A DNA stretch of 64,000 nucleotides, taken from Chitinophaga caseinilytica. GTDB taxonomy: Bacteria > Bacteroidota > Bacteroidia > Chitinophagales > Chitinophagaceae. The notes under the pieces were generated by a model. The model did not search any database, was not told the origin of the DNA, and saw nothing but the letters and a program-made list of their open reading frames with translations. The stretch is taken from contig NZ_CP150096.1 in NCBI RefSeq assembly GCF_038396765.1, positions 4,261,001 through 4,325,000 on the forward strand. Reading direction: 5' to 3'. The position numbers and the translations under genes were made by a program. Positions 10,681-23,605 of this stretch are shown here, in pieces (position 1 is the stretch's first letter; each line of letters starts with the position of its first letter).

Positions 10681-11871
10681 TTACGAAGCACCCAGCGATC
10701 GCAGCGCCAGCCAGGCCATCAGCCCGGCGCCGATCTCCAGCGATCGTTCGTCGGCATCGAAAGTAGCGGTGTGCAGCCCGGAAGTAATACGGCGTTCCTC
10801 ATTGCCCACGCCCAACCGGTAAAAGCAGGCGTCAGCGACCTGGGAATAAGACGCGAAATCTTCCGCGGCCATCCAGATGGGAAGGTCCACCACATTGTCG
10901 GCACCCATATATTCTTCCGTAAGCGCCCGCACTTCGGCCGTCAATGCTTCATGGTTGATCAGAACGGGATAGCCTACACGAATATCCACCTCGCAGCTTC
11001 CGCCCATTCCCTCCGCAATGGCATGCGCCAGTTTACGGATCCGGTCGTGCGCATCGAAGCGCCAGGTTTCGTCCAGCGTGCGGAAGGTACCGTCGATGAT
11101 CACTTTGTCGGGTATGACATTGTGCGCGCCATCGGCGATAACTTTACCGATCGATAAAACCGACGGCATGGTTGGATTGGCATTGCGGCTCACGATTTGC
11201 TGAAACGCGATGATCATGTGGCTGGCGATGATCACGGGGTCTACGGTAGTGTGGGGCATGGCGCCATGGCCGCCCTTTCCGTACACTTCGATATAGATCT
11301 CATCGGCACTGGCCATATATCGCCCCGCCCGCATCCCGATCTTGCCCACCGGCAGTTCGGGCATAACGTGCTGCCCCAAAATGCGTGCAGGCGCGGGGTT
11401 CTGCAACACGCCTTCCTTAATCATCAGGCTCGCCCCGCCGGGAATGCATTCCTCGCCAGGTTGGAAAATGAACTTCACCCGGCCGGAAAATTCATGCCGC
11501 AATTGCAGCAGGATTTCCGCAACGCCCAGGAGCGAAGTAGTATGCACATCGTGCCCGCAGGCATGCATGACACCGGGGGATTGCGATTTATAAGGCACGT
11601 CGTTCAACTCCGTGATCGGTAACGCATCGATGTCGGCGCGCAGCGCGATCACTGCGTCTGACGGGCCTTTCGTTCCCTCCATGATCGCCACGAGCCCCGT
11701 GCCCGCCATCCTTTCGTAGGGGATGCCCAGTGCATCGAGCTTTGCGGCCAGGAATGCGGCGGTTTTCTCTTCCATGAACGATAGTTCCGGGTTGGCATGC
11801 AGATGCCGGCGCGTGGCTACGGCGTTGTCCTGCAAACTGCGGGCGATGTCCCGGATCTTTTCCTTCAGCAT
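10681..11871 (-). CDS. M20-family amidohydrolase (hippurate hydrolase/N-acyl-amino-acid amidohydrolase type)
   Basis: This 396-residue protein has the usual length of cytosolic M20D metallopeptidases. Visible motifs are RRHLHANPELSF near the N-terminus, ALRADIDALP, the metal-binding HACGHDVHTT, PGEE (general base and metal ligand) and the dimerisation/lid segment with GKGGHGAMPH. The family removes acyl groups from N-acylated amino acids or related amides. There is no signal peptide. It is the last gene of the four-gene leftward operon, 7 bases after the DapA-like gene, and shares the LacI-type control region at 15.3-15.6 kb. In this context it probably releases an acyl or amino acid group from a pathway intermediate (inference). 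The exact substrate is unknown. Confidence 0.9.
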   Translation of the reverse strand: MLKEKIRDIARSLQDNAVATRRHLHANPELSFMEEKTAAFLAAKLDALGIPYERMAGTGLVAIMEGTKGPSDAVIALRADIDALPITELNDVPYKSQSPGVMHACGHDVHTTSLLGVAEILLQLRHEFSGRVKFIFQPGEECIPGGASLMIKEGVLQNPAPARILGQHVMPELPVGKIGMRAGRYMASADEIYIEVYGKGGHGAMPHTTVDPVIIASHMIIAFQQIVSRNANPTMPSVLSIGKVIADGAHNVIPDKVIIDGTFRTLDETWRFDAHDRIRKLAHAIAEGMGGSCEVDIRVGYPVLINHEALTAEVRALTEEYMGADNVVDLPIWMAAEDFASYSQVADACFYRLGVGNEERRITSGLHTATFDADERSLEIGAGLMAWLALRSLGAS

Positions 11872-11878
11872 ATATGCA

Positions 11879-12916
11879 TTAAATTTTGTCCTTTTCGAGG
11901 AAAGCGCGCACGAATTCGTCGTCGGTATGTTCCGGGTATTCGCGCATCACCCTTTCGATTTCTTCGGCCTGGCCGGGCGACAGCACTTCATGATCGCTCA
12001 GGCACCAGGTCCCTTCCATCAGCCCCTGTTTCCGCAACACTTCATGCAGCCCGGCGATGGAGCCTTTGAAGGAATGGGAAGGGTCGAACAGCGCCGCGTT
12101 CATGTCCGTCACCGCGATATTGGTGCTCATGAGGCCCATATCTGCAGGGTTCTGCCGGATCTGGTTGAACAACTCCACCACTTTGCTGGTCCAAACCGAC
12201 CAGTGGCCCAGCAATCCGCCGGCGAAGCGCTTTTCCACGATCTTCCCGTTTACGGGAATGCGGTAGGTGGTCAGCAGGTCGGCCACGATGTTATCGTCGT
12301 TCCCCGTATACATCGCGATTTCGTCGCAACGTTCGGAGTGGCACACGGCGCGGAATACGTCGAGCGTCTGGTAGCGGTTGAACGGCGCCGTCTTGATGGC
12401 GAGCAGGTTGGGAATGTCGGCCATCCTGCGCCAGCAATCGTAACTCAATATACGACCTCCTACAGAAGGTTGGAGATAAAATCCGAAAACGGGGATCACT
12501 TCCGCCACGGCCGCCACATGTTCAACGAGCTGGGCTTCGGAATAGTCTTTCAGTCCACCCAGGCTTACAAGCCCGATATGATACCCAAGCTCCCTGGCGA
12601 TGCCGGCTTCCTTCACGGCCTGCTCGGTAGGCCCGGCGATCCCGGCTACGCGGATGAACGGACGGTTGAGCTGTGCTTTGTCGATCTCTTCCGCGGCGAG
12701 CCGGAGCACGCGTTCGTAGAGGTTGTATTGTGGCCAGCGGATCTCGAATTGGGTGGTGTGCACGCCCACGGCCACGCCACCTGCGCCGGAGGCGATGTAG
12801 TAGCGGGTGAGCCGGCGCTGGCGGGCTTCGTCGAGCTGCCGGTCTTCCGTGAGTGCCAGCGGATGGGCAGGGATGACCGTGCCGCTGTAAAGCAGTGATT
12901 TGATGGATGCGTCCAT
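11879..12916 (-). CDS. Dihydrodipicolinate synthase (DapA/NanA) family protein
   Basis: 345 residues counted from MDASIKSLLYSG. This start was chosen because upstream residues of the longer frame are not protein-like and it leaves a 26-base gap to the epimerase gene. The TIM-barrel family carries out Schiff-base aldol or retro-aldol and dehydration reactions on 2-keto acids. The N-terminal VIPAHPLAL region and GAGGVAVGVHTTQ fit the family, and the Schiff-base Lys is probably in NLLAIKTAPF. The sequence is clearly not housekeeping DapA: it is longer and the usual GTTGE is GVHTT. The operon context with epimerase, amidohydrolase and oxidoreductases suggests cleavage of a sugar-acid-like intermediate (inference). 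Confidence 0.85.
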   Translation of the reverse strand: MDASIKSLLYSGTVIPAHPLALTEDRQLDEARQRRLTRYYIASGAGGVAVGVHTTQFEIRWPQYNLYERVLRLAAEEIDKAQLNRPFIRVAGIAGPTEQAVKEAGIARELGYHIGLVSLGGLKDYSEAQLVEHVAAVAEVIPVFGFYLQPSVGGRILSYDCWRRMADIPNLLAIKTAPFNRYQTLDVFRAVCHSERCDEIAMYTGNDDNIVADLLTTYRIPVNGKIVEKRFAGGLLGHWSVWTSKVVELFNQIRQNPADMGLMSTNIAVTDMNAALFDPSHSFKGSIAGLHEVLRKQGLMEGTWCLSDHEVLSPGQAEEIERVMREYPEHTDDEFVRAFLEKDKI

Positions 12917-12942
12917 ATGTATGCGAATCGTAGTTGTGTTTT

Positions 12943-13959
12943 TTAGAATTTGCCCGTCCGGGTCTGGAAATGGGTGGGTTTTTTGATGGTGGCGCCACCG
13001 CTCTGGTACCATTCGAGCGTCATGCGGACCATATCGCGCAGGGTCACTTTCGGGTAGCCGAACAGGCGGAAGCTTTCGGCGGCGTTGTTGAGCAGTGCCG
13101 TATCCTGTTCCGCGTTCACGAACTGCGGCGTTTTGCCGGCCAGTTTGCCGAATTCCTCTGCGATCCAGCGAACGGAAGCCGTTTCAGGGCCTGTGATGTT
13201 GAGGTATTTGGCGGGAGCGGAAGTATGCAGGAAGGAGCGGAGCGCATATTCGTTGGCATCGCCCTGCCAGATTACGTTTACATGGCCCATGCGCAGATCG
13301 ATGGGGGTTTCGTTTACGACGGATTTGCAGATTTCCAGGAGCACGCCGTACCGGAGATCGTTAGCGTAATTGAGGCGGTAAATCAGCAGTTCCGTGCCGT
13401 ATTGCTGGGAGAAATGTTCGAAGATGCGCTCGCGGCCGAGGCAGGATTGCGCGTATTCGCCGACCGGGCCAACGGGCGTGCTTTCGTCTGCTCCGCCGGA
13501 GTACACGGGCACGAGGGGATATACATTCCCGGTGGAATATACCACGATCCGTGAGTTGCGGTATTTTTCCGCCACGCGGCCGGGGAGATAGGCGTTCATG
13601 GCCCACGTAAAGGCTTCCTTGCCGGTGGTGCCGAATTTGGTGCCGGCGAGGTAGAGCACGTTTTTAACGTCGGGCAGCGCGGCGAGGTCGGCTTCGTTCA
13701 GCAGGTCGGCGGAGATGGCTTCCACACCGGCGGCTTCCAGTTCTTCGCGGAGGCCGGGCTCGGAAAGCCGGCTCACGCCGATCACGCGGCGGGGAACGCC
13801 GGATGCGTCTACGGCCTGTTTGGCCAGTTTGGCGAGGCTGGGGCCGATCTTGCCGCCAACGCCGAGAATGAGGATGTCGCCTTCGAGGCGCGCGATGTCT
13901 GCTACCAATGCTTCGGAAGGCTTCAGCAGCTCTTCAACGGTCGAGAATATTGCGTCCAT
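12943..13959 (-). CDS. NAD(P)-dependent epimerase/dehydratase family protein
   Basis: 338 residues with an extended SDR (Rossmann) layout. The dinucleotide-binding region ILILGVGGKIGPSLAKLA departs from strict GxxGxxG (GVGGKIG). NVLYLAGTKFG follows, then a VVYSTGNVYP strand ending in the Ser/Thr site. The catalytic YxxxK expected next is not evident: EYAQSCLGRERI occupies that position, with Tyr but Arg instead of Lys. The family epimerises, dehydrates or reduces sugars or related metabolites with NAD(P). It is the second gene of the leftward operon between the transporter and the lyase, 21 and 26 bases from its neighbours. The specific reaction is unknown. Confidence 0.85.
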   Translation of the reverse strand: MDAIFSTVEELLKPSEALVADIARLEGDILILGVGGKIGPSLAKLAKQAVDASGVPRRVIGVSRLSEPGLREELEAAGVEAISADLLNEADLAALPDVKNVLYLAGTKFGTTGKEAFTWAMNAYLPGRVAEKYRNSRIVVYSTGNVYPLVPVYSGGADESTPVGPVGEYAQSCLGRERIFEHFSQQYGTELLIYRLNYANDLRYGVLLEICKSVVNETPIDLRMGHVNVIWQGDANEYALRSFLHTSAPAKYLNITGPETASVRWIAEEFGKLAGKTPQFVNAEQDTALLNNAAESFRLFGYPKVTLRDMVRMTLEWYQSGGATIKKPTHFQTRTGKF

Positions 13960-13980
13960 GTCGTATAGTTTGCGAGTTGA

Positions 13981-15234
13981 TTATGAAAAGAATAATGTTT
14001 TGACGTTGCTGGCGGCGAGGATGAACATGAAAATGAGGCCCAGTGCGCCGAAGAATTTCACGTACGGCGGGTTTTTCATGGGGCCCATGATCTTTTCGTC
14101 GTTGGCGACGAGGTACAGCGCCACACCGATGAAGGGAACGATGAAAATGGTGACCGCCTGCGCCAGCACGATGAGCTCCAGCGGCAGTTTCCCGAAGGAA
14201 AGGGCGACCGTGGCCCCGAGCGCCATGATGACGCCGATGAGTATCCTTACCTTACCCGATTGCAGTGAGCCGCCAAACCCGAGCGCGTCGCCCAGCAAAG
14301 TGCCGCCCAGTGCGGCGTTGCCGATCATCGCGGAGAAGGAGGCGCCAAAAAGGCCGGAAAGGAACAGCGCCGAAGCGAAGTTGCCGAAGATCGGCTCGAG
14401 GGCGATGGCCATGTCCGTCGCTTTGGTGACGTTGATGTTGCGGCTATGCAACACCGCCGCGCTGCACGACATCACGATGGCCGCGAGGATGCCGAGGATC
14501 ACCATGCCCGGGATGGCTTCCCGGCCCGTTTGTTTTGCCTGCGGATTGATCCGTTTGCGCTCCTGGACGAGGTAGGCCTGGTACAATGCGCCCACGATGG
14601 AGAAGCACGAGGCGATGAAAGCGATGGTGAGTGGCAGGGAACCTTCCGGCAGGGAAGGCACTGCAAAACCTTTGGCCACATCCGGCAGTGAAGGTTGGGT
14701 AAAGAAGAAAGTAGTGCAGAAGGCGAGGAGCATGAGCCCGATGAGCGCGATCATGACCTTTTCCAGCGATTTGTAAAAACTGCGGAAGAAAAGCATGACC
14801 ATCGCGGCGAGGTTGAACACGATCACCCAAATGCCCGGCGCCGTATGCGTGGCTTCGCCCACAGCGATCCCGATGCCGATGGAGTTGCCCGCCTGGAACG
14901 AAGCGCACACGAGGAAAACGCCCACGCCGATGGCGATGCGCGCGCCTTTGCCCCATTTTTTCCCGATGGTGGTGAGGGCGGATTCACTGGTGGCGATGCC
15001 GACCCGGGCCGCCATCACGGCGAAAATGATCATAAAGAAAATAGCGACCACCACCAGCCAGAGCAGGGCATAGCCATATTTGGCGCCCATCATGGAGGCA
15101 ACGGTGATCTTGCTGGGGCCGAACACGAGCGCGGCCGTGATGAGGCCGGGCCCGATGGCTTGCAGCCAGGCTTTACCGCGACTGGCGGCGGGTGCGGGAG
15201 CGGTGGAACGAACGGTGGCTGTCGAATCTTCCAT
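13981..15234 (-). CDS. Nramp-fold transporter lacking the canonical metal-binding motifs
   Basis: 417 residues with about 11 hydrophobic helices and an Nramp-type beginning (GPGLITAALVFGPSKI). In true Mn/Fe Nramps helix 1 carries DPGN and helix 6 MPH. Here the first reads GPSK, and helix 6 (GALYQAYLVQERKR) has no Met-Pro-His. Asp, Asn and Met ligands are therefore all absent, and a substrate other than Mn(II) or Fe(II) is likely. It is the first gene of the leftward operon, divergent from the oxidoreductase/nag operon across a region with four operator palindromes. That context suggests import of the pathway substrate, perhaps together with Mg or protons. Annotation as a divalent metal transporter would rest on fold alone. 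Confidence 0.85.
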   Translation of the reverse strand: MEDSTATVRSTAPAPAASRGKAWLQAIGPGLITAALVFGPSKITVASMMGAKYGYALLWLVVVAIFFMIIFAVMAARVGIATSESALTTIGKKWGKGARIAIGVGVFLVCASFQAGNSIGIGIAVGEATHTAPGIWVIVFNLAAMVMLFFRSFYKSLEKVMIALIGLMLLAFCTTFFFTQPSLPDVAKGFAVPSLPEGSLPLTIAFIASCFSIVGALYQAYLVQERKRINPQAKQTGREAIPGMVILGILAAIVMSCSAAVLHSRNINVTKATDMAIALEPIFGNFASALFLSGLFGASFSAMIGNAALGGTLLGDALGFGGSLQSGKVRILIGVIMALGATVALSFGKLPLELIVLAQAVTIFIVPFIGVALYLVANDEKIMGPMKNPPYVKFFGALGLIFMFILAASNVKTLFFS

Positions 15235-15271
15235 AAACGTTTTTTTATGCGATGACCTGGTTGTCTTTTTA

Positions 15272-15285
15272 CGGGTGCGTACACG
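15272..15285. promoter_or_regulatory. LacI-type operator site 1 (imperfect)
   Basis: CGGGTGCGTACACG, two mismatches from the palindrome, 37 bases upstream of the Nramp-like start codon. Confidence 0.65.
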
Positions 15286-15336
15286 GCGTCTGCTTTACTT
15301 TGTAGGAGCAGATTTCAGAAATACGTGGATGAAATC

Positions 15337-15350
15337 CGGGTACGTACCCG
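15337..15350. promoter_or_regulatory. LacI-type operator site 2 (perfect)
   Basis: CGGGTACGTACCCG, a perfect 14-bp palindrome with the central CG step typical of LacI/GalR-family operators. Confidence 0.75.
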
Positions 15351-15498
15351 AAAGTACAAGTCAATTCCGGAATTTGCAAATAAATTTCGCCGTTACCGGA
15401 TATTCCGGCAGGAGGGAGGCATTAATATAAGGGAACGGACAAAATATTTTTTTCCTTCCCGTTTTCCTTGCAATTATCCGATTTAAATTACTAACTTC

Positions 15499-15512
15499 CG
15501 GGTGCGTACCCG
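15499..15512. promoter_or_regulatory. LacI-type operator site 3
   Basis: CGGGTGCGTACCCG, one mismatch from the perfect palindrome. Confidence 0.7.
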
Positions 15513-15572
15513 ATGTTGCAGGGTATTTCACAGACAACGGTTGCCGGACAGCCGTTTTTAAGGAATGAGTTA

Positions 15573-15586
15573 CGGGTACGTACCCG
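15573..15586. promoter_or_regulatory. LacI-type operator site 4 (perfect)
   Basis: CGGGTACGTACCCG, 72 bases upstream of the first oxidoreductase start codon and the site closest to the rightward operon. Confidence 0.75.
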
Positions 15587-15658
15587 GAATTACCGAAATC
15601 CTTGCCAGACCAGATCTACAGACAGCGTAAATACAATACCAGAAGATAAAGTTCCACC

Positions 15659-16687
15659 ATGCATCAACGCTACGACCGCCGACAGTTCCTCCAGTCCATA
15701 ACCGCCGCAGGCATCGCCACCGGCCTTTCCGCCAGTCCGACCCTCCGCGCCATGGCCCTGGCCGCCGATCCCGTCCGCATCGGCATCATCGGTTGCGATA
15801 CCTCGCATGCCGTCGCCTTCGCGAAAAGTTTCAATAAAGATATAGTGACGCCCGGCCTCGAGGGGTTCCGCATCGTGGCCGCGCTCCCCGAAGCAAGCCC
15901 AGATATCGAGAACAACCAGAAACGCATGCCGGGCTTCGTGGAAGAACTGAAGAAACTCGGCGTGGAAATCGTTTCCGACATGGACGCGCTCCTCGCCAAA
16001 TCCGACGTGGTGATGGTGGAATCCAACGACGGGCGGCCCCATCTCCGGCAAGCCCTTCCCGCCATCCGCGCCGGGAAGAAAGTGTTCATAGACAAGCCCC
16101 TGGCCGCTTCCCTGGCCGAGGGCATCGAAATATTCAACCTCTCCGAAAAGCATAACGCGCCCGTGTTCTCCGCTTCTTCGCTGCGGTATGTAGATAATGT
16201 GCAGGCCGTGGCCGGCGGCTCTATCGGCAAAGTATTCGGTGCGGAAACCTTCAGTCCCTGCGCGCTGGAAAAAACGCATCCCGACCTTTACTGGTACGGC
16301 ATCCATGGCGTGGAAATGCTCTGTACCGTGATGGGGACCGGCTGCCAGACGGTTTCCCGGACTTCCACGGCCGACGCCGACGTTGTAGTAGGCGTTTGGG
16401 AAGGAGGGCGGATCGGTACGTACCGGGGCATCCGCGGCGGAAAGCAGGATTACGGCGGCAACGCCTTCGGCGAGAGCAGCATCGTACCGCTGGGGCCATA
16501 CAAAGGCTACGAACCGCTCCTGTTGCGGATTGCGGAGTTCTTCCGGACGGGTAAGCCACCCGTTTCCCGCGAAGCGACCCTCGAAATCCTCGCTTTCATG
16601 GATGCGGCAGACGAAAGCAAACGCAGGAAAGGCGCGCCGGTTTCCGTAGCGGCGATGTTCGACCGCGCCAGGAAACGCAAGCACTGA
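15659..16687 (+). CDS. Gfo/Idh/MocA-family oxidoreductase with Tat signal (first of pair)
   Basis: 342 residues. The N-terminus MHQRYDRRQFLQSITAAG is a twin-arginine signal (RRQFLQ), so the enzyme is probably exported folded with its nucleotide cofactor. The Rossmann part begins VRIGIIGCDTSH, and the conserved (E/D)KP motif appears as FIDKPLAAS. The C-terminal half is the alpha/beta substrate domain. The family oxidises or reduces sugars and cyclitols with NAD(P). It opens the rightward operon 72 bases after operator 4. Periplasmic members in Bacteroidota are known to make 3-keto-glycosides, which would fit a glycan locus, but no 3-keto-glycoside hydrolase (DUF1080) is present here. Substrate unknown. 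Confidence 0.9.
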   Translation: MHQRYDRRQFLQSITAAGIATGLSASPTLRAMALAADPVRIGIIGCDTSHAVAFAKSFNKDIVTPGLEGFRIVAALPEASPDIENNQKRMPGFVEELKKLGVEIVSDMDALLAKSDVVMVESNDGRPHLRQALPAIRAGKKVFIDKPLAASLAEGIEIFNLSEKHNAPVFSASSLRYVDNVQAVAGGSIGKVFGAETFSPCALEKTHPDLYWYGIHGVEMLCTVMGTGCQTVSRTSTADADVVVGVWEGGRIGTYRGIRGGKQDYGGNAFGESSIVPLGPYKGYEPLLLRIAEFFRTGKPPVSREATLEILAFMDAADESKRRKGAPVSVAAMFDRARKRKH

Positions 16688-16715
16688 ACATCCATCCACC
16701 CATAAAATCCACCTT

Positions 16716-18056
16716 ATGAAAAATACACGCAGATCGTTTTTGAAGAAAACCGCGCAAGGCACGGCCCTCATGGCCGCCGGCGGCATCCTCCCCGGCTTCA
16801 GCGCCAAAAGTTACGCCTCCATTCTCGGTGCCAACGAGCGCATCCGGGTAGGCATGATGGGCGTGAACGCCCGCGGACTGGCCCTCGCGCAGAATTATGC
16901 CAAACAGCCCGATTGCGAAGTGGTATCCGTTTCGGACGTAGATACCCGCGCCAGCGAAAAGTGCATCGCCAAAGTCAACGACATACAAAAAAAGCAGCCG
17001 GCCAACATCCCTGATTTCCGGAAAGCACTCGAGCAAAAAGATATGGACGCGCTCATCATCGCCGCGCCCGACCATTGGCACGCACCTGCCGCCATCCTCG
17101 CCGCCAAAGCCGGTAAGCACGTTTATCTCGAAAAGCCCTGCAGCCACAATCCACACGAAGGCGAATTGCTCGTTGCCGCGCAGAAAAAATACAAATCCGT
17201 TATCCAGATGGGCAACCAGCGCCGGTCCTGGCCCAATGTCATCAAAGGCATCCGGGAGCTGAAAGACGGTGCGATCGGCCGCGTTTATTTCGGGAAGGGA
17301 TGGTATACCAACAACCGCCAGTCGATCGGCCGCGGAAAGGAAACCGCCGTTCCCGAATGGCTGAACTACGAACTCTGGCAGGGGCCCGCGCCCCGCAAGG
17401 CTTTCCGCGATAACCTCATCCACTATAACTGGCACTGGTTCTGGAATTGGGGGACGGGCGAAGCCCTCAACAACGGCACCCACATGATCGACCTGCTGCG
17501 CTGGGGCATGGGCGTGGATTATCCCATCCGCGTGTCTTCCGCCGGCGGAAGATACCGTTACGAAGACGATTGGGAAACGCCGGACACGCAGGTCATCAAC
17601 CTCGAATTCGACAACAACAGCAGCATGGCCTGGGAAGGCCGGAGCTGCAACGGCAAACCGCTGGAAGGAAATACCGTTGGCGTCGTGTTTTATGGCGAAA
17701 AAGGTTCGCTCATGATCGACGGCAACGCCTACACCATTTACGACCTCGACAACAAAGTGGTCAAAGACGTGAAGAACGACATGAAGATCGACGCGCGCAA
17801 CCTTACCAATCCCGCCGAAGCGCTGGATGCGCTGCATTTCCAGAACTTCTTCTCCGCCATCCGCAGCGGCGCGCCGCTCAACAGCGACATCCTCAGCGGC
17901 CATCAGAGCACATTGCTCTGCCAGCTGGGCAACATCGCGCTGCGCACGCAAAGCACGCTGCATACCGACCCTTCCAACGGACGGATCAAAAACAACGCCG
18001 CCGCGCAAAAATTATGGAAACGGACTTACCAGCCGGGCTGGGAACCGACAGTATAA
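16716..18056 (+). CDS. Gfo/Idh/MocA-family oxidoreductase with Tat signal (second of pair)
   Basis: 446 residues starting MKNTRRSFLKKTAQG, a clear twin-arginine signal (RRSFLK) with an Ala/Gly-rich hydrophobic core. The Rossmann fold begins RIRVGMMGVNARG, and the signature EKPCSHNP contains the catalytic-site Lys. The following GNQRRSW and the GTHMIDLLRW segment (likely catalytic His) are typical of the long secreted subfamily common in Bacteroidota and Planctomycetota. It lies 28 bases after the first oxidoreductase and 17 before the permease, inside the same operon. The two oxidoreductases differ in length and motif (DKP against EKP), so they probably catalyse different steps rather than being recent duplicates. 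Confidence 0.92.
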   Translation: MKNTRRSFLKKTAQGTALMAAGGILPGFSAKSYASILGANERIRVGMMGVNARGLALAQNYAKQPDCEVVSVSDVDTRASEKCIAKVNDIQKKQPANIPDFRKALEQKDMDALIIAAPDHWHAPAAILAAKAGKHVYLEKPCSHNPHEGELLVAAQKKYKSVIQMGNQRRSWPNVIKGIRELKDGAIGRVYFGKGWYTNNRQSIGRGKETAVPEWLNYELWQGPAPRKAFRDNLIHYNWHWFWNWGTGEALNNGTHMIDLLRWGMGVDYPIRVSSAGGRYRYEDDWETPDTQVINLEFDNNSSMAWEGRSCNGKPLEGNTVGVVFYGEKGSLMIDGNAYTIYDLDNKVVKDVKNDMKIDARNLTNPAEALDALHFQNFFSAIRSGAPLNSDILSGHQSTLLCQLGNIALRTQSTLHTDPSNGRIKNNAAAQKLWKRTYQPGWEPTV

Positions 18057-18073
18057 ACCCGTAAATCAGACCG

Positions 18074-19453
18074 ATGCGGACACAAACCGGCATGGTAGAC
18101 CCCGGCTCGCTGAGCCGGCGGGATACGCGCATATCCATCCTTATTATCGGGATGCTGTTTTTCATCTTCGGCTTCGTGTCGTGGGTGAACGCCATCCTCA
18201 TTCCTTATTTCAGGATCGCCTGCGAACTGACGAGCCTGCAATCGTACCTCGTTACGTTCGCGTTTTATATTTCTTACCTGGTGATGTCTGTTCCGTCGTC
18301 GTACCTGTTGCGGTCGATCGGGTTCAAGCGGGGGATGATGATCGGATTCTGGGCGATGTCGCTCGGAGCTTTCCTCTTCGTACCGGCGGCCCTCATGCGG
18401 GCGTACCCCTTGTTCCTGCTGGGGCTTTTCACCCTGGGAATAGGGCTGGCCGTGCTGCAAACCGCCGCCAATCCCTACATCACGATCCTCGGGCCGAAGG
18501 AGTCTGCCGCGCAGCGCATCAGCGTAATGGGGATCTGCAACAAGTTTGCCGGCATCATTGCCCCGCTGATCTTCGCCGCGGTGATCCTGCGGGTGTCGGA
18601 TACTGACCTGGAGCGAACTTTGCCGGGCATGGGCGCAGCGGAAAGGGCAGCCGTACTGGATGCGTTCATCCGCCGGGTAATCATTCCGTACACCGTGCTG
18701 GGAAGCGTATTGTTCGTGCTGGGGCTCGTGGTGCGGTTTTCGCCGCTGCCGGAGATCGATACGGAAAACGAAAGCACGGAAACTGCGGCCATCAACAGCG
18801 GGAAGAAAAGCATTTTCGATTTTCCGCACCTGATCCTGGGCGCCATTGCGATCTTTCTGCACGTCGGAACGCAGGTCATAGCGATCGATACGATCATTTC
18901 CTACGCCGGTTCCATGGGCATCCCGCTCCTCGAAGCCAAAACGTTCCCGTCGTATACGCTGGGCGCCACGATCGTGGGGTATTTCATCGGCATCCTCCTC
19001 ATCCCGAAATTCGTGAAACAGGTGAACGCCCTCCGTTTCTGTACGGTACTTGGCGCGGTGCTTACGGTTTGCATCGTGAACATGCGCGGCATGGTGAACG
19101 TTTTCGGGCATGAAACGGATGTGTCCATTTGGTTCGTGGTGTTGCTGGGCCTGGCCAACTCGCTCGTTTGGGCGGGCATCTGGCCGCTGGCGCTCGACGG
19201 ACTGGGCCGTTTTACCAAGCTGGGCGCGTCTGTCCTGATCATGGGGCTTTGCGGTAACGCGGTGCTGCCGCTGGTGTACGGTTTTTTCGCGGACATAGCG
19301 GGGGAACGAAGCGCTTACTGGGTGCTATTGCCCTGTTACGCTTACCTCATGTATTATGCATTTTACGGGCACCTGGTGCGCAGCTGGTCGCTGTTGCGCC
19401 GGCCCGTTATTTCAACACCCGAATATGAATTCCAGGAAGATAAAAATCGTTAA
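18074..19453 (+). CDS. nagP: FucP-family sugar MFS transporter, probable N-acetylglucosamine permease
   Basis: 459 residues with 12 predicted membrane helices. It has FucP/GluP-family features: the early FFIFGFVSWVNAILIPYF helix, the helix 4-5 pattern GIGLAVLQTAANPYI and PKESAAQRIS. The family imports monosaccharides by proton symport across the inner membrane. It overlaps nagA by 29 bases and is followed by nagB, which matches the NagP position of known Bacteroidota and gammaproteobacterial GlcNAc clusters. GlcNAc or a close derivative is therefore the probable substrate (inference from context). No GlcNAc kinase is present in the window, so phosphorylation must be encoded elsewhere. Confidence 0.88.
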   Translation: MRTQTGMVDPGSLSRRDTRISILIIGMLFFIFGFVSWVNAILIPYFRIACELTSLQSYLVTFAFYISYLVMSVPSSYLLRSIGFKRGMMIGFWAMSLGAFLFVPAALMRAYPLFLLGLFTLGIGLAVLQTAANPYITILGPKESAAQRISVMGICNKFAGIIAPLIFAAVILRVSDTDLERTLPGMGAAERAAVLDAFIRRVIIPYTVLGSVLFVLGLVVRFSPLPEIDTENESTETAAINSGKKSIFDFPHLILGAIAIFLHVGTQVIAIDTIISYAGSMGIPLLEAKTFPSYTLGATIVGYFIGILLIPKFVKQVNALRFCTVLGAVLTVCIVNMRGMVNVFGHETDVSIWFVVLLGLANSLVWAGIWPLALDGLGRFTKLGASVLIMGLCGNAVLPLVYGFFADIAGERSAYWVLLPCYAYLMYYAFYGHLVRSWSLLRRPVISTPEYEFQEDKNR

Positions 19454-20651
19454 CGGCCGGATCATCACACCATACCGCATCATCAACGGCGGCACGGTGT
19501 TGACGGAGGGCAACCGCATCCTGGCGGTGGCGGAAGACGATATTCCCGTTTCCGGCGCCGTGGAGATCGATGCGAAAGGGCAATATATTTCGCCCGGTTT
19601 CATCGATATACATGTGCATGGCGGCGGCGATGCGGATTTTATGGACGGGGACGCGGCATCTTTCCTGAAAGTCGCCGAAACGCATATCCAATACGGCACC
19701 ACGGCCATGACGCCTACATCGCTCAGCAGCGATACCGACAGCCTGCGGCGCACGATTTCCACCTACGAAGCCGCGCATCCGCTCAACCGGAAAGGGTCGG
19801 AATTCCTGGGCATTCATCTGGAAGGGCCATACTTCGCCATGGAGCAACGCGGCGCGCAAGACCCGCGCTACATCCGCAACCCGGACCCCGCGGAATACGC
19901 GTCCGTGCTCGCGGATACGACATCAGTCGTGCGCTGGAGCGCCGCCCCCGAGCTCCCGGGCGCCCTCGCTTTCGGCGATTATCTCCGGCACCGGGGGATT
20001 TTGCCCGCCGTTGCACATACAGACGCTATTTACGAAGAAATGCTCGACGCCTGGGAGCACGGCTATTCCCACGCCACGCACCTCTATTCGGCGATGTCGG
20101 GCGTTACGCGGCGGAACGCCTTCCGCTACGCCGGCGTCATCGAAAGCGCGTTCCTGCTCGACGATATGACCGTGGAAATCATCGCAGACGGTGTGCACCT
20201 GCCGCCCGCGCTGCTCAAGCTCGTCTACAAGTTCAAAGGCCCGGAAAAAACCGCCCTCATCACCGACGCCATGCGCGCCGCCGGCATGCCCCCGGGCGAA
20301 AGCATCCTCGGCAGCCGGGAAAACGGACTGAAAGTGATCATAGAAGATGAAGTGGCGAAACTGCCCGACCGTACACAGTTTGCGGGAAGCGTGGCTACGG
20401 CCGACCGGCTCGTACGCAACATGGTAAAACTGGCGGACGTGCCCATGGCCGACGCCGTACGCATGATGACCGCCACGCCTGCTGCCATCATGAAGGTTTC
20501 CGGGAGTAAAGGGTCGCTCGCCACGGGGAAAGATGCCGACATCGTGTTGTTCGACGAAGACGTGCGCATCGATACGGTGATCCGCGGCGGAGAGGTCCTC
20601 CATCGCGCAGCAAACGCCCGGTCGGTACTGCACTTACCATCACAAGCATAA
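19425..20651 (+). CDS. nagA: N-acetylglucosamine-6-phosphate deacetylase
   Basis: 408 residues from MNSRKIKIVNG. This start, 29 bases inside the permease gene, was preferred to the upstream ATG at 19356 because the extra 23 residues have no family character. The amidohydrolase TIM-barrel motifs are present: DIHVHGGG (residues 61-68), metal ligand Glu133 in HLEGPYF, His198 (AHTD), His219 (SHATHL) and catalytic Asp281 in TDAMRAAGM. It deacetylates GlcNAc-6-P to glucosamine-6-P in the cytoplasm. Translational coupling to the permease is likely. The DIHVHGGG site has the usual single-metal composition. Confidence 0.95.
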   Translation: MNSRKIKIVNGRIITPYRIINGGTVLTEGNRILAVAEDDIPVSGAVEIDAKGQYISPGFIDIHVHGGGDADFMDGDAASFLKVAETHIQYGTTAMTPTSLSSDTDSLRRTISTYEAAHPLNRKGSEFLGIHLEGPYFAMEQRGAQDPRYIRNPDPAEYASVLADTTSVVRWSAAPELPGALAFGDYLRHRGILPAVAHTDAIYEEMLDAWEHGYSHATHLYSAMSGVTRRNAFRYAGVIESAFLLDDMTVEIIADGVHLPPALLKLVYKFKGPEKTALITDAMRAAGMPPGESILGSRENGLKVIIEDEVAKLPDRTQFAGSVATADRLVRNMVKLADVPMADAVRMMTATPAAIMKVSGSKGSLATGKDADIVLFDEDVRIDTVIRGGEVLHRAANARSVLHLPSQA

Positions 20652-20716
20652 AAAACCACCATACCACCGCTGCGGCAGCCACAGAGCGCCGTCCGGCATC
20701 AAAAACCTGTCAACAT

Positions 20717-21466
20717 ATGCATACATACCAACGAATCAATGTACACCAGTTTGAGGACAGGCGCCGGATGGGCGCTGCCGCGGCGGCTGCGGTGGCGGAA
20801 AGGATCCATTCGCTGTTACATTCGAAGCCACACATCAGCATGATCTTCGCCGCCGCGCCTTCGCAGCAGGAATTCCTGGAATCGCTGCGGACGGATACTT
20901 CCATTCCCTGGCACCGTATTAACGCGTTCCATATGGACGAATACATCGGTCTGCGCGAAGATGCGCCGCAAGGCTTCGGGAACTTCCTCCGGGAGCGCCT
21001 TTTCGGCCTCGTGCCGTTCAGAACGGTACATTACCTCGACGGACAAACGAAAGACACGCAGGCGGAATGCGAGCGCTATGCCGGGTTGCTGAACGGCGGA
21101 ACGGATATCGTTTGCATGGGAGTGGGGGAGAACACGCACATCGCGTTCAACGACCCGCACGCGGCGGATTTCAACGATCCCAAACTGGTGAAGGTGGTAG
21201 ATTTGGACGATGCCTGCCGGCAACAACAAGTGAACGACGGATGTTTTGCATCGTTGCAGGACGTGCCGACGCATGCCCTGACGCTTACGGTACCCGCCCT
21301 GTATCGCGGTACCTGGATTTATTGCATGGTGCCCGGCGCTGCGAAAGCGGAGGCGGTGCGGCACACGCTGCGATCGCCCGTAAGCCCGCAACATCCCAGT
21401 ACCATTTTGCGGGAACATCCGCGGGCGGCGCTTTTCATCGACAATGACAGTGCGGCGCTGCTTTAG
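20717..21466 (+). CDS. nagB: Glucosamine-6-phosphate deaminase
   Basis: 249 residues, close to the family length. The catalytic-region motif DEYIGL appears in FHMDEYIGLRED. GVGENTHIAFNDP replaces the usual G(I/V)GxxGHIAFNxP: the second Gly is Thr, while the catalytic His is kept. The early FAAAPSQQEF corresponds to the phosphate-binding loop, which more often reads GLxTGxTP, so this is a divergent NagB. It converts glucosamine-6-P to fructose-6-P and ammonia, feeding glycolysis. It is the last gene of the rightward operon, 65 bases after nagA, and convergent with lacI across 0 bases (the ends overlap by 4). Confidence 0.9.
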   Translation: MHTYQRINVHQFEDRRRMGAAAAAAVAERIHSLLHSKPHISMIFAAAPSQQEFLESLRTDTSIPWHRINAFHMDEYIGLREDAPQGFGNFLRERLFGLVPFRTVHYLDGQTKDTQAECERYAGLLNGGTDIVCMGVGENTHIAFNDPHAADFNDPKLVKVVDLDDACRQQQVNDGCFASLQDVPTHALTLTVPALYRGTWIYCMVPGAAKAEAVRHTLRSPVSPQHPSTILREHPRAALFIDNDSAALL

Positions 21467-22524
21467 TTTTTGTAATACATGTGGTTTTCGCGGGTGATGA
21501 TGTCGATCGGCATGAAGTGTTCCTTTTCGACGGGTGCGCCCAGCACGAGGTGCTGATATAGCGTCATGATGCCGCGATAGGCCTGTTCCTGGGGTTTCTG
21601 GCAGATCAGGAAATCGATCATGCCTTTCTGGAGCCACGAAACGTTTTCGGGAAGGAAGTCGTACCCCATCACCAGAATATCCTTTTTTCCGGCAGATTCC
21701 AGGAACTGCGCGATGAGATGCACGCGGGAACTGGTGACGAAAATGGCTTTGATGGACGCGTCTGCCGCGAGGGCTTCCGCTACTTTCCTTTCGATGGATT
21801 TCTCGTTGCTTTCGGGGACGTCGGTTTTGACGATCCTGTCCGGTTTCTCACCGAAATACGCCCTGAAACCTTCTTCCTTCCGCAACAGGGGATGCAATCC
21901 TTCGATTTCCTTCGTCATGTTCACCATGAGGATTTTATCGTCGGGCTGGAGGCAATAAGCCATAAGGTGCGCGGCGAGGTACCCGCTGCGGAAGAGCTCC
22001 GGGCCCACATAGCAAAGACTGCCCAGGCTGGGAATGTCGGAGTTGATAAATACGTAGGGAACGTTCTTTTCCTGCAGCTGTCCGCAGAATGCGGTGGCTT
22101 CATCTACGAAGAGCGGAGCCAGCAAAACCCCGTCCAGCGGCCCTTTCAGCAATTGCTTGGCGGCTTTGGGGAAGGAAGTGCGGTCGTTGAAATCGTAGTA
22201 ATACCGTTCGATGCGGACCCCCATCTGCCGGATTTCGTCTTCGGCCTGGGAAACGCCCGCCAGGAGGATTTCCCAGTATTCCGTTTCCGTAGAAACCGCC
22301 GGGAGCAATATGGCGAGGTTCAATACTTTGCGCGATGCCAGCCGGCTCGCAATGATATTGGGCTGATAGTTCAATTCCTGGATGATCTTCTCGATCTTGG
22401 CGCGTGTTTTGGCCGATACGCCCGTCCGGTTATGGATGACCCGGTCTACCGTGGCGATCGACACCTTCGCCCGCCGCGCTATTTCCTTGACGCCGCCGGG
22501 CTGATCTGGTTGTTTCCCTTTCAT
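21463..22524 (-). CDS. LacI/GalR-family transcriptional regulator of the amino-sugar locus
   Basis: 353 residues from MKGKQPDQPGG; a longer frame to 22716 is open but would run through the operator, so the inner ATG was chosen. Residues ~13-62 are the LacI helix-turn-helix (VKEIARRAKVSIATVDRVIHN, then hinge-helix IIASRLASR). The rest is a periplasmic-binding-protein-like effector domain (PF13407-like, starting LNLAILLPAV). The start codon lies 14 bases downstream of a 14-bp palindrome matching the four between the divergent operons. Autoregulation and control of both operons and of GH43 is a strong inference. The effector is probably a sugar or sugar phosphate from the pathway. Confidence 0.92.
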   Translation of the reverse strand: MKGKQPDQPGGVKEIARRAKVSIATVDRVIHNRTGVSAKTRAKIEKIIQELNYQPNIIASRLASRKVLNLAILLPAVSTETEYWEILLAGVSQAEDEIRQMGVRIERYYYDFNDRTSFPKAAKQLLKGPLDGVLLAPLFVDEATAFCGQLQEKNVPYVFINSDIPSLGSLCYVGPELFRSGYLAAHLMAYCLQPDDKILMVNMTKEIEGLHPLLRKEEGFRAYFGEKPDRIVKTDVPESNEKSIERKVAEALAADASIKAIFVTSSRVHLIAQFLESAGKKDILVMGYDFLPENVSWLQKGMIDFLICQKPQEQAYRGIMTLYQHLVLGAPVEKEHFMPIDIITRENHMYYKN

Positions 22525-22538
22525 GGAGTTATAGTGTA

Positions 22539-22552
22539 CGTGTACGTACCCG
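22539..22552. promoter_or_regulatory. LacI-type operator site 5
   Basis: CGTGTACGTACCCG, one mismatch from the palindrome seen four times at 15.3-15.6 kb. It lies between the divergent lacI and GH43 genes, 14 bases from the lacI start and 45 from the GH43 start. Confidence 0.75.
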
Positions 22553-22597
22553 AAAGTAGTGAAAAAGAATTGATTGGGATATTTTATTTTAGGGGAC

Positions 22598-23605
22598 ATG
22601 AAAACCATGTTTATTTCCCTGCTGCTGCTTGCCACCGTTGCCGGCACGCAGGCCCAGGATTCCACGTTCACCAATCCACTCCTGACTTCCGGCGCCGATC
22701 CGTATTCGTATTTCAAAGACGGATGGTATTATTACACGCACACTACGGCTAATTCCATCGTACTGTGGAAGACCCGCAGCCTGGCAGACCTCAAGTCCGC
22801 CCAACACGTCACCATTTACAAACCCACCGAAAACAACGCTTGGTCAAAAGACATCTGGGCGCCCCAGGTGCAGTTCCTCCGCGGGAAATGGTATGCTTAC
22901 TTCGCAGCCACCGGCGGAAAGAATGTCCAACATCGCATGTACGTCCTCGAAAACCCTTCGCCCGATCCCATGACCGGCAGCTGGACCTTCAAGGGCCAGG
23001 TTACCGACGCTACCAACAAATGGGCAATCGACGGCGATATCTTCGAATACAAAAAGGAACTGTACATGATCTGGTCGGGCTGGGAGGGAGATGCCGACAA
23101 GCAGCAGGATATTTACATCGCACAAATGAAAAATCCCTGGACGATTTCGTCGAAACGGGTTCGCCTGTCTGTCCCGGAACACGAATGGGAGAAAAGCGGC
23201 CAGAAAGTGACGGTGAACGAGGGCCCGCAGGCACTCATGCATGGCAAAAAACTCATGATCGTGTATTCCGCCAGCGGCTGCTGGACGGACCATTACGCCC
23301 TGGGCCTGCTTCGTTTCTCCGGAAAAGGCAGCCTCCTGGATTCCGCCCGGTGGACGAAACATCCCGAACCGATCTTCCAGACTTCGGTGGCGAATAGAGT
23401 ATGGTCGCCGGGGCATAATTCGTTCTTCAAAAGTCCCAACGGCAAGGAAGACTGGATCCTCTACCACGCCAATTCCCAGCCAGGCTGGGGCTGTGGCGGC
23501 AAACGATCTCCCCGTATGCAAAAGTTCAGCTGGACGGCAGACGGGATGCCGGTGTTCGGGGAACCTGTTGCGGAGGGCGTCGAATTGCAAAAACCGGCCA
23601 ATTAG
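22598..23605 (+). CDS. Secreted glycoside hydrolase family 43 protein
   Basis: 335 residues from MKTMFISLLLLATVAGTQAQ, a signal peptide cleaved after QAQ. The five-bladed propeller residues of GH43 can be placed: general base Asp34 (GADPYSYF), pKa-tuning Asp145 (AIDGDIF) and general acid Glu208 (VNEGPQAL). GH43 enzymes remove arabinose, xylose or galactose side groups from plant polysaccharides. It is divergent from lacI, with operator 5 between them, so co-regulation is likely. A GH43 enzyme next to an amino-sugar operon is unusual. About 143 bases of its 3' end recur almost unchanged at 24991-25133. Confidence 0.9.
   Translation: MKTMFISLLLLATVAGTQAQDSTFTNPLLTSGADPYSYFKDGWYYYTHTTANSIVLWKTRSLADLKSAQHVTIYKPTENNAWSKDIWAPQVQFLRGKWYAYFAATGGKNVQHRMYVLENPSPDPMTGSWTFKGQVTDATNKWAIDGDIFEYKKELYMIWSGWEGDADKQQDIYIAQMKNPWTISSKRVRLSVPEHEWEKSGQKVTVNEGPQALMHGKKLMIVYSASGCWTDHYALGLLRFSGKGSLLDSARWTKHPEPIFQTSVANRVWSPGHNSFFKSPNGKEDWILYHANSQPGWGCGGKRSPRMQKFSWTADGMPVFGEPVAEGVELQKPAN

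Follow-up and report, generated by a model that had tools for sequence, protein, structure and literature searches.

The 64,000-nucleotide stretch of DNA analysed here (the window) covers positions 4261001–4325000 of the 6.5 Mb genome of the soil bacterium Chitinophaga caseinilytica and carries, within window positions 10681–23605, two divergent gene arms and a LacI-family regulator gene that together probably form the core of a single regulon. The leftward arm encodes an Nramp-like carrier, an epimerase-like protein, a DapA-like lyase and an M20 amidohydrolase; the rightward arm encodes two Gfo/Idh-type proteins (Gfo1 and Gfo2) followed by NagP, NagA and NagB. Beyond this nag arm, lacI runs leftward with an operator-like site just ahead of its start, and a GH43 gene runs rightward, divergent to lacI. 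Feature coordinates are counted within the window, and gene calls are simple open reading frames with their BLAST best hits, not curated gene models. Relatives are designated by L numbers, for locus or contig stretches, and G numbers, for the genomes compared.

Neighbourhoods of the DapA-like gene (hereafter DapA) were assembled from a search over 244 genomes, which matched 32, 29 of them strongly (E ≤ 4.8e-25) and three weakly (E about 1e-3); they were read in 27 genomes (28 loci), with G000 and an 81-residue fragment in G107 excluded. Further DapA loci, seeded by DapA motifs, were taken as the best 80 of 576 relatives. The total is 108 loci (74 from Bacteroidota and 34 in the Bacillota set; 109 with the window), or 107 distinct ones, as L060 and L216 are the same contig.

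The left arm lies on the minus strand. Its carrier gene (13981–15234) encodes an Nramp-family protein (PF01566, 227.5 bits) in whose alignment FGPSK takes the place of DPGN, the metal-binding motif of Nramp metal transporters. Since DPGN is missing from all 51 Nramp homologues (FGPSK in 45, GPGS in 6), the protein may be a carrier of organic solutes. The epimerase-like gene (12943–13959; PF01370, 35.8 bits against a cut-off of 20.9) encodes a short-chain dehydrogenase/reductase (SDR)-like protein that reads YxxxC where the SDR catalytic motif is YxxxK; the lysine occurs in none of 107 homologues, which have Cys in 99, Thr in 4, Ser in 3 and Val in 1, and 'epimerase' is, to judge from these alignments, a family name only. 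DapA (11879–12916, start inferred at the ATG at 12916) belongs to the DapA/N-acetylneuraminate lyase (NAL) family (PF00701, 27.8 bits; cut-off 22.1), whose class I lyases employ a Schiff-base lysine and a tyrosine. Tyr147 and Lys175 are kept in 109 of 109 homologues and align with the tyrosine and lysine of NAL, a conservation that is partly circular in the seeded loci because their search started from DapA motifs. No NCBIfam model, those for DapA, NanA and KdgA included, matched it at E 0.001. AlphaFold2 models of the lyase and the epimerase-like protein are confident (pLDDT 90.9 and 89.9). The arm ends in an M20 amidohydrolase of the N-acyl-amino-acid hydrolase type (10681–11871; PF01546, 138.6 bits; TIGR01891, 345.1 bits), for which four PDB entries match at E ≤ 1e-40: an M20 peptidase (4ewt), YxeP, an IAA-amino acid hydrolase and an N-acyl-glutamine aminoacylase.

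The right arm, on the plus strand, opens with Gfo1 (15659–16687; PF01408, 42.8 bits), a Gfo/Idh-like protein with a signal-like start. Gfo1 homologues are present in 31 of the 109 loci (14 of these in the Bacillota set). At the usual position of GxGxxG, the normal motif of Gfo/Idh enzymes, Gfo1 and homologues carry, as read by eye, G-(C/L)-D-T-S-H (GCDTSH in the window copy), so that NAD binding may be altered. Gfo2 (16716–18056), with a twin-arginine-like start read by eye and with 8tdf and 8tdh as its best PDB matches, is a distant relative of glycoside 3-dehydrogenase BT_2158, scoring 146.2 bits against the family model NF058561, below the cut-off of 750. There follow a NagP-like major facilitator superfamily transporter (18074–19453), below the cut-off of NF046060 (377 against 625 bits) and over that of TIGR01272 (252.6 against 202.55); NagA, the N-acetylglucosamine 6-phosphate (GlcNAc-6-P) deacetylase (19425–20651, start inferred, ATG), over the TIGR00221 cut-off (259.7 against 225.65 bits); and a NagB-like deaminase of a diverged subfamily (20717–21466), below the cut-off of TIGR00502 (113.2 against 236.9 bits). 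Aligned with its relatives, the NagB-like protein has D-to-N and E-to-D changes in a stretch matching the catalytic part of E. coli NagB. Action of this protein on an unphosphorylated sugar was considered and dropped, because the arginine and lysine through which E. coli NagB binds phosphate have counterparts in the alignment.

The regulator gene (21463–22524, minus strand, start inferred at the ATG at 22524) encodes a LacI helix-turn-helix domain and a periplasmic-binding-like effector domain (PF00356, 63.8 bits, and PF13407, 122.3 bits, both over cut-off). The GH43-family glycoside hydrolase gene (22598–23605, plus strand, start inferred, ATG; PF04616, 198.8 bits, with no NCBIfam model matched) has orthologues adjoining lacI in L105, L108, L112 and L122–L124, and is possibly co-regulated with it. 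Members of the LacI/GalR family habitually bind palindromic operators with a central CG. At up to three mismatches the palindrome CGGGTACGTACCCG matches 13 times in the window, against a mean of 3.18 and a maximum of 9 in 100 dinucleotide shuffles. Four LacI operator-like sites (no strand assigned) stand between the divergent arms, at 15272–15285 (two mismatches), 15337–15350 (exact), 15499–15512 (one mismatch) and 15573–15586 (exact, upstream of Gfo1), and a fifth, at 22539–22552 (one mismatch), lies 15–28 bp upstream of the likely lacI ATG and also precedes GH43. A site ahead of lacI recurs in relatives, for example in L102, L108, L112, L120 and L122–L124. Across the whole genome, eight sites are found at up to one mismatch, compared with two for a reversed control pattern; those outside the window lie at 5880389 (no mismatches) and at 5893837, 5893893 and 5894015 (one each). 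With two mismatches allowed, the genome shows only a slight excess (43 sites, compared with 28 for the reversed control), and two-mismatch sites elsewhere in the genome were therefore taken as background.

A first-pass annotation of this DNA had described the same gene families and order with four palindromes under one consensus and a fifth before lacI/GH43. The families matched, and the gene order and all five palindromes are real; the sites are of uneven quality, and the exported oxidoreductases, placed by that annotation in the other arm, sit in the nag arm.

The palindrome follows this particular LacI across genomes. In 79 Chitinophaga genomes, its mean count at up to one mismatch is 5.05 where a close LacI is present (n = 21; 58% identity or more and a best E no worse than about 5e-135, with the degraded copy of G304 counted in), 1.14 where only a distant LacI is present (n = 22) and 1.36 where there is none (n = 36), the control pattern giving 1.19, 0.95 and 0.92. 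Among the 74 Bacteroidota DapA loci, which lie largely outside Chitinophaga, the 12-mer GGGYACGTRCCC occurs in 13 of the 20 with a linked LacI (a relative at 45% identity or more) and in 0 of the 54 LacI-less loci, or 0 of 53 with the repeated contig counted once; in the Bacillota set it occurs in 0 of 34. In its 13 loci, which include two from Chitinophaga closely related to the window (L151, from C. deserti, and L152), it is always intergenic and at an operon start. In Dyadobacter, LacI precedes the Nramp-epimerase-DapA genes (Gfo1-Nramp in L208), and in five loci these are followed by genes for a pyrroloquinoline quinone (PQQ) dehydrogenase and SusC/D, SusC having a second site of its own (carrying a mismatch in L191, and with a GntR gene between in L208). 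Such a pattern is hard to explain without a LacI–operator pair, and these comparisons support the assignment of LacI to a putative operator, CGGGYACGTRCCCG, before lacI, at the divergent Nramp/Gfo1 promoters, and before SusC/SusD and the PQQ dehydrogenase. Alternatively, the palindromes might belong to another regulator, with LacI a bystander, given that their operator role is read from sequence and that the genus also has distant LacI paralogues whose sites are similar (L106, L135, L138); as the site accompanies linked LacI across families and stands before lacI itself, we consider this very improbable. The first-pass proposal of one LacI regulon over both arms is thus supported.

Paralogous LacI systems in Chitinophaga (49–51% identity; L106, L135, L138, L139) lie beside SusC/D with similar operators before SusC, several of them also with DegT aminotransferase, ceramidase-like and amidohydrolase genes. 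The locus copy in G304 (L141) is degraded, with stops in LacI; this genome is listed as 65% complete, and sequencing errors are therefore possible.

The regulon genes of C. caseinilytica are spread over three chromosome sites, and part of the pathway lies 1.6 Mb away, outside what the window shows. At 5880389 the exact site separates the gene for an SMP-30 lactonase from that for a PQQ sugar dehydrogenase, which also has a cytochrome c domain; GSDH and SGL domains were matched at this place. The three sites at 5893837–5894028 precede SusC/SusD. SusD is followed by a class III pyridoxal phosphate (PLP) enzyme (aminotransferase), a DgoD-like dehydratase, an SDR, a ceramidase-like protein and a sodium/solute symporter (SSS). 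The dehydratase scores 328.2 bits against NF010624, over the galactonate dehydratase cut-off of 311, and aligns D, H, E, E and H, the metal-ligand and catalytic residues of acid-sugar dehydratases, to 3rr1. Beside this second locus, L005 1–2317 (genome 5874000–5876316) encodes a GH130 beta-1,2-mannosidase (621 bits, over cut-off) and an amidohydrolase-2 protein.

In eight Chitinophaga genomes (G255, G260, G261, G272, G282, G300, G315 and G316; loci L115, L117, L118, L126, L127 and L129–L131), window genes and second-locus genes are united in a single cluster. The order begins with aminotransferase, dehydratase, SDR, ceramidase-like protein, SSS symporter, lacI, a third Gfo/Idh-type protein, PQQ dehydrogenase and Nramp, and continues through a site to Gfo1, Gfo2, NagP, NagA, NagB, epimerase, DapA and M20; the 20 kb stretches each cover a portion of it, some genes going unrecognised in one or another, and SusC or SusD is present in some. 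Because relatives carry them as a single cluster, the window, SusC/D and PQQ-dehydrogenase genes are taken to serve one pathway. Over the 79 Chitinophaga genomes, DapA occurs in 31 and the second-locus aminotransferase in 23, both being present in 22, DapA only in 9, the aminotransferase only in 1, and neither in 47. The two genes are on the same contig, 12–21 kb apart, in 13 of the 22 genomes with both; in the other nine they are apart, on other contigs, or at a distance that was not measured. Five of the 13 linked genomes (G177, G246, G298, G305, G314) lack a close LacI, which makes the DapA–aminotransferase linkage independent of the regulator. Both the regulon and the conserved linkage of its genes are thereby supported.

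How firmly the left arm is tied to the nag genes depends on the breadth of the comparison. In 18 of the 21 close-LacI Chitinophaga genomes, DapA and LacI are at most about 21 kb apart and nag genes stand alongside (G252 and G313 are exceptions, and the locus of G304 is degraded), whereas NagP, NagA or NagB orthologues, at the thresholds applied, stand near DapA in only 11 of the 74 Bacteroidota loci and 0 of the 34 Bacillota loci. Conservation of the left operon near nag genes in relatives, to which the first-pass annotation had tied its reading, is thus seen in Chitinophaga and mostly fails in the wider set. NagP, NagA and NagB orthologues are absent from eight Dyadobacter loci that carry LacI, the site, Nramp, epimerase and DapA (L179 has a 34% NagB-like gene nearby); it is in this genus that the regulon looks smallest, comprising LacI, Nramp, epimerase, DapA, PQQ dehydrogenase and SusC/D. 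More distant NagA- or NagB-like genes occur in few loci, for example L045, L179 and L197. Because the left core usually occurs without nag genes, its lyase and epimerase would not have to supply NagA/NagB, and the earlier proposal of a flow through these two, with GlcNAc-6-P entering NagA/NagB, is unsupported. The comparisons support instead a left arm that would be an independent module, joined here to salvage of N-acetylglucosamine (GlcNAc) and not obviously feeding NagA/NagB. The regulon itself stays tied to amino sugars, because nag genes occur in 9 of 20 LacI-linked and 2 of 54 LacI-less loci, because L046 and L060 carry SIS (AgaS-like, 370 bits, below the cut-off of 529), sugar-kinase and class II aldolase genes, and because distant Chitinophaga LacI relatives lie near NagP, NagA or NagB orthologues in 5 of 11 stretches (L133–L135, L137 and L138, as opposed to L106, L110, L132, L136, L139 and L140).

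The same data could mean that the substrate has two halves, GlcNAc being coupled to an unrelated second group: the nag arm would degrade the amino sugar, and Nramp-epimerase-DapA(-M20) would take on the remaining half, not necessarily an amino sugar itself. The left module is mobile and without nag orthologues in the Bacillota set, it travels in Dyadobacter with LacI and site (in five loci with PQQ dehydrogenase and SusC/D as well), and in L046 and L060 it accompanies the AgaS-like, sugar-kinase and class II aldolase genes. The enrichment of nag genes in LacI-linked loci argues against such a division, however, and the M20 and PLP enzymes point to nitrogen handling by the left arm too; we regard it as unlikely, with perhaps a modest chance of being correct.

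At the heart of the left arm stands a pair of genes. An epimerase-like gene directly precedes DapA in 106 of 108 loci, DapA lying at a contig end in the other two (L071, L209). DapA proteins of the Bacillota set are 61–66% identical to that of the window. Relatives at E ≤ 0.001 number at least 8000, of which the 120 listed are 65–97% identical, the closest among the matches listed (97%) being from Chitinophaga sp. NPDC101104, and they carry family names only, such as 'dihydrodipicolinate synthase family protein'. Companions within 9.5 kb over the 109 loci are Nramp (51), M20 (42), Gfo1 (31), PQQ dehydrogenase (25), LacI (17), NagB (11), NagP (9) and NagA (8). Subunits of an Fe-S L-serine ammonia-lyase follow DapA in ten Bacillota-set loci (both over cut-offs in L213), and the complete arrangement DapA, beta, alpha, M20 is present in four loci from Paenibacillus (L196, L200, L213, L229). 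A protein of about 450 residues, whose only Pfam match is a sub-threshold GGDEF_GdpP, accompanies the pair in 24 of the 34 Bacillota-set loci (e.g., L213 6915–8264), and a secreted-looking protein of about 650 residues stands beside it in both phyla, in 18 of 109 loci (e.g., L199 2015–4018, a copy with kelch-type matches, and L155 11059–13041, a copy with no NCBIfam match). An ApbE-type flavin transferase gene (Pfam match) adjoins DapA/M20 in five loci (e.g., L052 660–1661), hinting at a flavin enzyme in some variants.

Some neighbourhoods raise the thought that the substrate is a glycan of uronic acid and hexosamine, and that epimerase-DapA processes 2-keto-3-deoxygluconate-type products of unsaturated uronides. 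GH88 is over its cut-off in L045 and L164, as are KduI and KduD in L164; a pectate-lyase-like beta-helix protein follows SusD in L127 (70 bits) and L208 (weak rhamnogalacturonidase matches); and glucosamine and galactosamine gene sets both occur. Yet few loci show such genes among the selected genes scanned, L050 has a GH88-like gene that scores below cut-off, and no GH88 was found among the scanned genes of the window or the second locus, which leaves the idea improbable. In Neobacillus citreus the pair stands with GH88, KduI, KduD and ABC-transporter genes (L164 3357–14884), and uronide use is suggested for that organism on this account.

A further alternative takes DapA for a true sialic-acid-type lyase that would release pyruvate and an N-acylamino sugar for NagA/NagB. 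N-acetylneuraminate lyases, mostly variants of one enzyme by name, make up 16 of the 18 PDB matches of the DapA family profile, and an SSS symporter and nag genes would fit; Gfo/Idh-type proteins acting on dehydrated sialic acids are also described in the consulted parts of two reports (PMC7315737, PMC7535918). Against this, the best profile match reaches 37 bits, the single sequence is closest to dihydrodipicolinate synthase (DHDPS; 26.7 bits), most loci have no nag genes, the PQQ dehydrogenase and aldonate dehydratase would be unaccounted for, and no sialidase appears among the scanned genes. We give this lyase role only a slim chance.

Three simpler designations were set aside: a plain GlcNAc operon, which leaves the left arm over; a sialic-acid operon, the profile match being weak; and peptidoglycan recycling, for which MurQ was seen in L056 and GH20 in L047, L056 and L065, only these loci having been scanned for it.

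As a whole, the window is best explained as the core of one LacI regulon for oxidative breakdown of an N-acetylhexosamine conjugate with parallel GlcNAc salvage, a reading that we favour without quite counting it as probable. Non-phosphorylating aldonate routes are built from aldose dehydrogenase, lactonase, galactonate-type dehydratase and DapA-type lyase families, all represented here. We infer the following chemical steps. An N-acetylhexosamine-containing oligosaccharide or conjugate would enter through SusC/D and be oxidised in the periplasm by the PQQ dehydrogenase and the exported Gfo/Idh proteins, after which the SMP-30 lactonase would open the lactone. The sugar acid would be imported by the Nramp-like carrier, the SSS carrier or both, de-acylated by M20, and deaminated or dehydrated by the class III PLP enzyme, the DgoD-like dehydratase and the SDR-like 'epimerase' to a 2-keto-3-deoxy acid, which the DapA-like lyase would split into pyruvate and an aldehyde without phosphorylation. 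M20 together with a PLP enzyme or a serine-type ammonia-lyase would answer the needs of an N-acetylated 2-amino sugar acid. Free GlcNAc would pass from NagP through a kinase encoded elsewhere to NagA and NagB; there is no kinase among the cluster genes, and no search for a GlcNAc kinase was made. An intermediate would release LacI, the simplest candidate being an amino sugar or its phosphorylated form.

Several observations weigh against this scheme or its regulatory frame. The epimerase-DapA pair occurs without nag genes in 63 of 74 Bacteroidota and 34 of 34 Bacillota loci at the thresholds applied, so that amino-sugar chemistry is no more than a candidate role for the left arm. The nearest relatives of DapA are N-acetylneuraminate lyases or DHDPS, not aldonate aldolases, and the part played by the SDR-like protein is not accounted for. 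Ten of the 21 close-LacI genomes carry only 1–4 sites, near background (an exact site lies upstream of Gfo1 in nine of them and of Gfo2 in G252); 7 of the 20 LacI-linked loci lack the exact 12-mer (two carry the variant TGTGTACGTACACG); 8 of the 13 positive loci belong to the single genus Dyadobacter; and the P values of the main tests (1.4e-9 to 2e-11) ignore kinship and are too optimistic, because the genomes are related. A GntR regulator gene stands upstream of SusC. Finally, an import role for the Nramp-like protein, as in the first-pass annotation, is compatible with the loss of DPGN and not proved by it: an Nramp-related protein, NrmT, carries Mg2+, according to the part of its report consulted (PMC4072509), so a missing DPGN alone leaves the cargo undecided and a metal role possible.

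Beside the locus, at window positions 69–9284, a 3071-residue open reading frame has repeated surface-protein-like modules and a gliding-motility-type C-terminus, as read by eye.

Among known systems, the archaeal non-phosphorylative Entner-Doudoroff pathway uses an aldose dehydrogenase, an enolase-superfamily aldonate dehydratase and a DapA-superfamily 2-keto-3-deoxy-aldonate aldolase. The same three families recur here, the aldolase role being predicted from sequence, with the addition of amino-sugar genes, an SDR-like protein without the catalytic lysine and an Nramp-like carrier. The usual NagP-NagA-NagB salvage of GlcNAc shares its transporter, deacetylase and deaminase families with this regulon, and differs in that the NagB-like protein here is below the curated cut-off and co-controlled with an oxidative module. 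The nearest described pathway is the ong pathway of Pseudoalteromonas, which breaks down oxidised chitin (GlcNAc1A, N-acetylglucosaminate); as far as the consulted part of its report goes, the two would have in common a TonB-type outer-membrane import, an SSS inner-membrane carrier, N-acyl-amino-acid-like de-acylation, a PLP enzyme and late phosphorylation, while the MurR/RpiR repressor OngR, the D-aminoacylase OngB and KdgK are its own (PMC9537276). Here, in contrast, LacI, M20, a PQQ dehydrogenase, a DapA-family lyase and nag genes belong to one regulon; no KdgK was found among the scanned genes of the window and the second locus, and no genome-wide search for KdgK or OngB was made. Gfo/Idh oxidoreductases also begin the 3-keto-glycoside routes of the BT_2158, 3-ketolactose (PMC9007349) and levoglucosan (PMC7676230) types, in the consulted portions of these reports. 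With such oxidoreductases common to both, Gfo2 falls short of the family model (146 of the 750 bits required), and no DUF1080 match was found among the Pfam-scanned genes of the window and the second locus. A 2024 Nature paper reportedly treats the 3-keto pathway. In the parts of the open-licence PMC literature consulted, we recognised no description of the epimerase-DapA pair or of this regulon, and the three family names fall at separate loci of Bacteroides in what was seen of PMC10434189. As far as these searches show, the pathway is new as a combination.

We therefore propose, tentatively and with doubt outweighing confidence, that epimerase and DapA form a catabolic pair, widely exchanged and so far undescribed, in which an SDR fold lacking the catalytic lysine works with a pyruvate-releasing class I lyase; that the accompanying Nramp-family protein has turned organic-acid importer; and that LacI couples this module to GlcNAc salvage in Chitinophaga, giving a new oxidative route for amino-sugar conjugates. 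The analysis brings to attention a conserved two-enzyme module whose members are known by family names only, and it sets out a regulon that can be tested, its operators and member genes listed, for a carbon source that no single locus would reveal. If DPGN-less Nramp-family proteins in sugar regulons do carry organic acids, their annotations as metal transporters would need revision.

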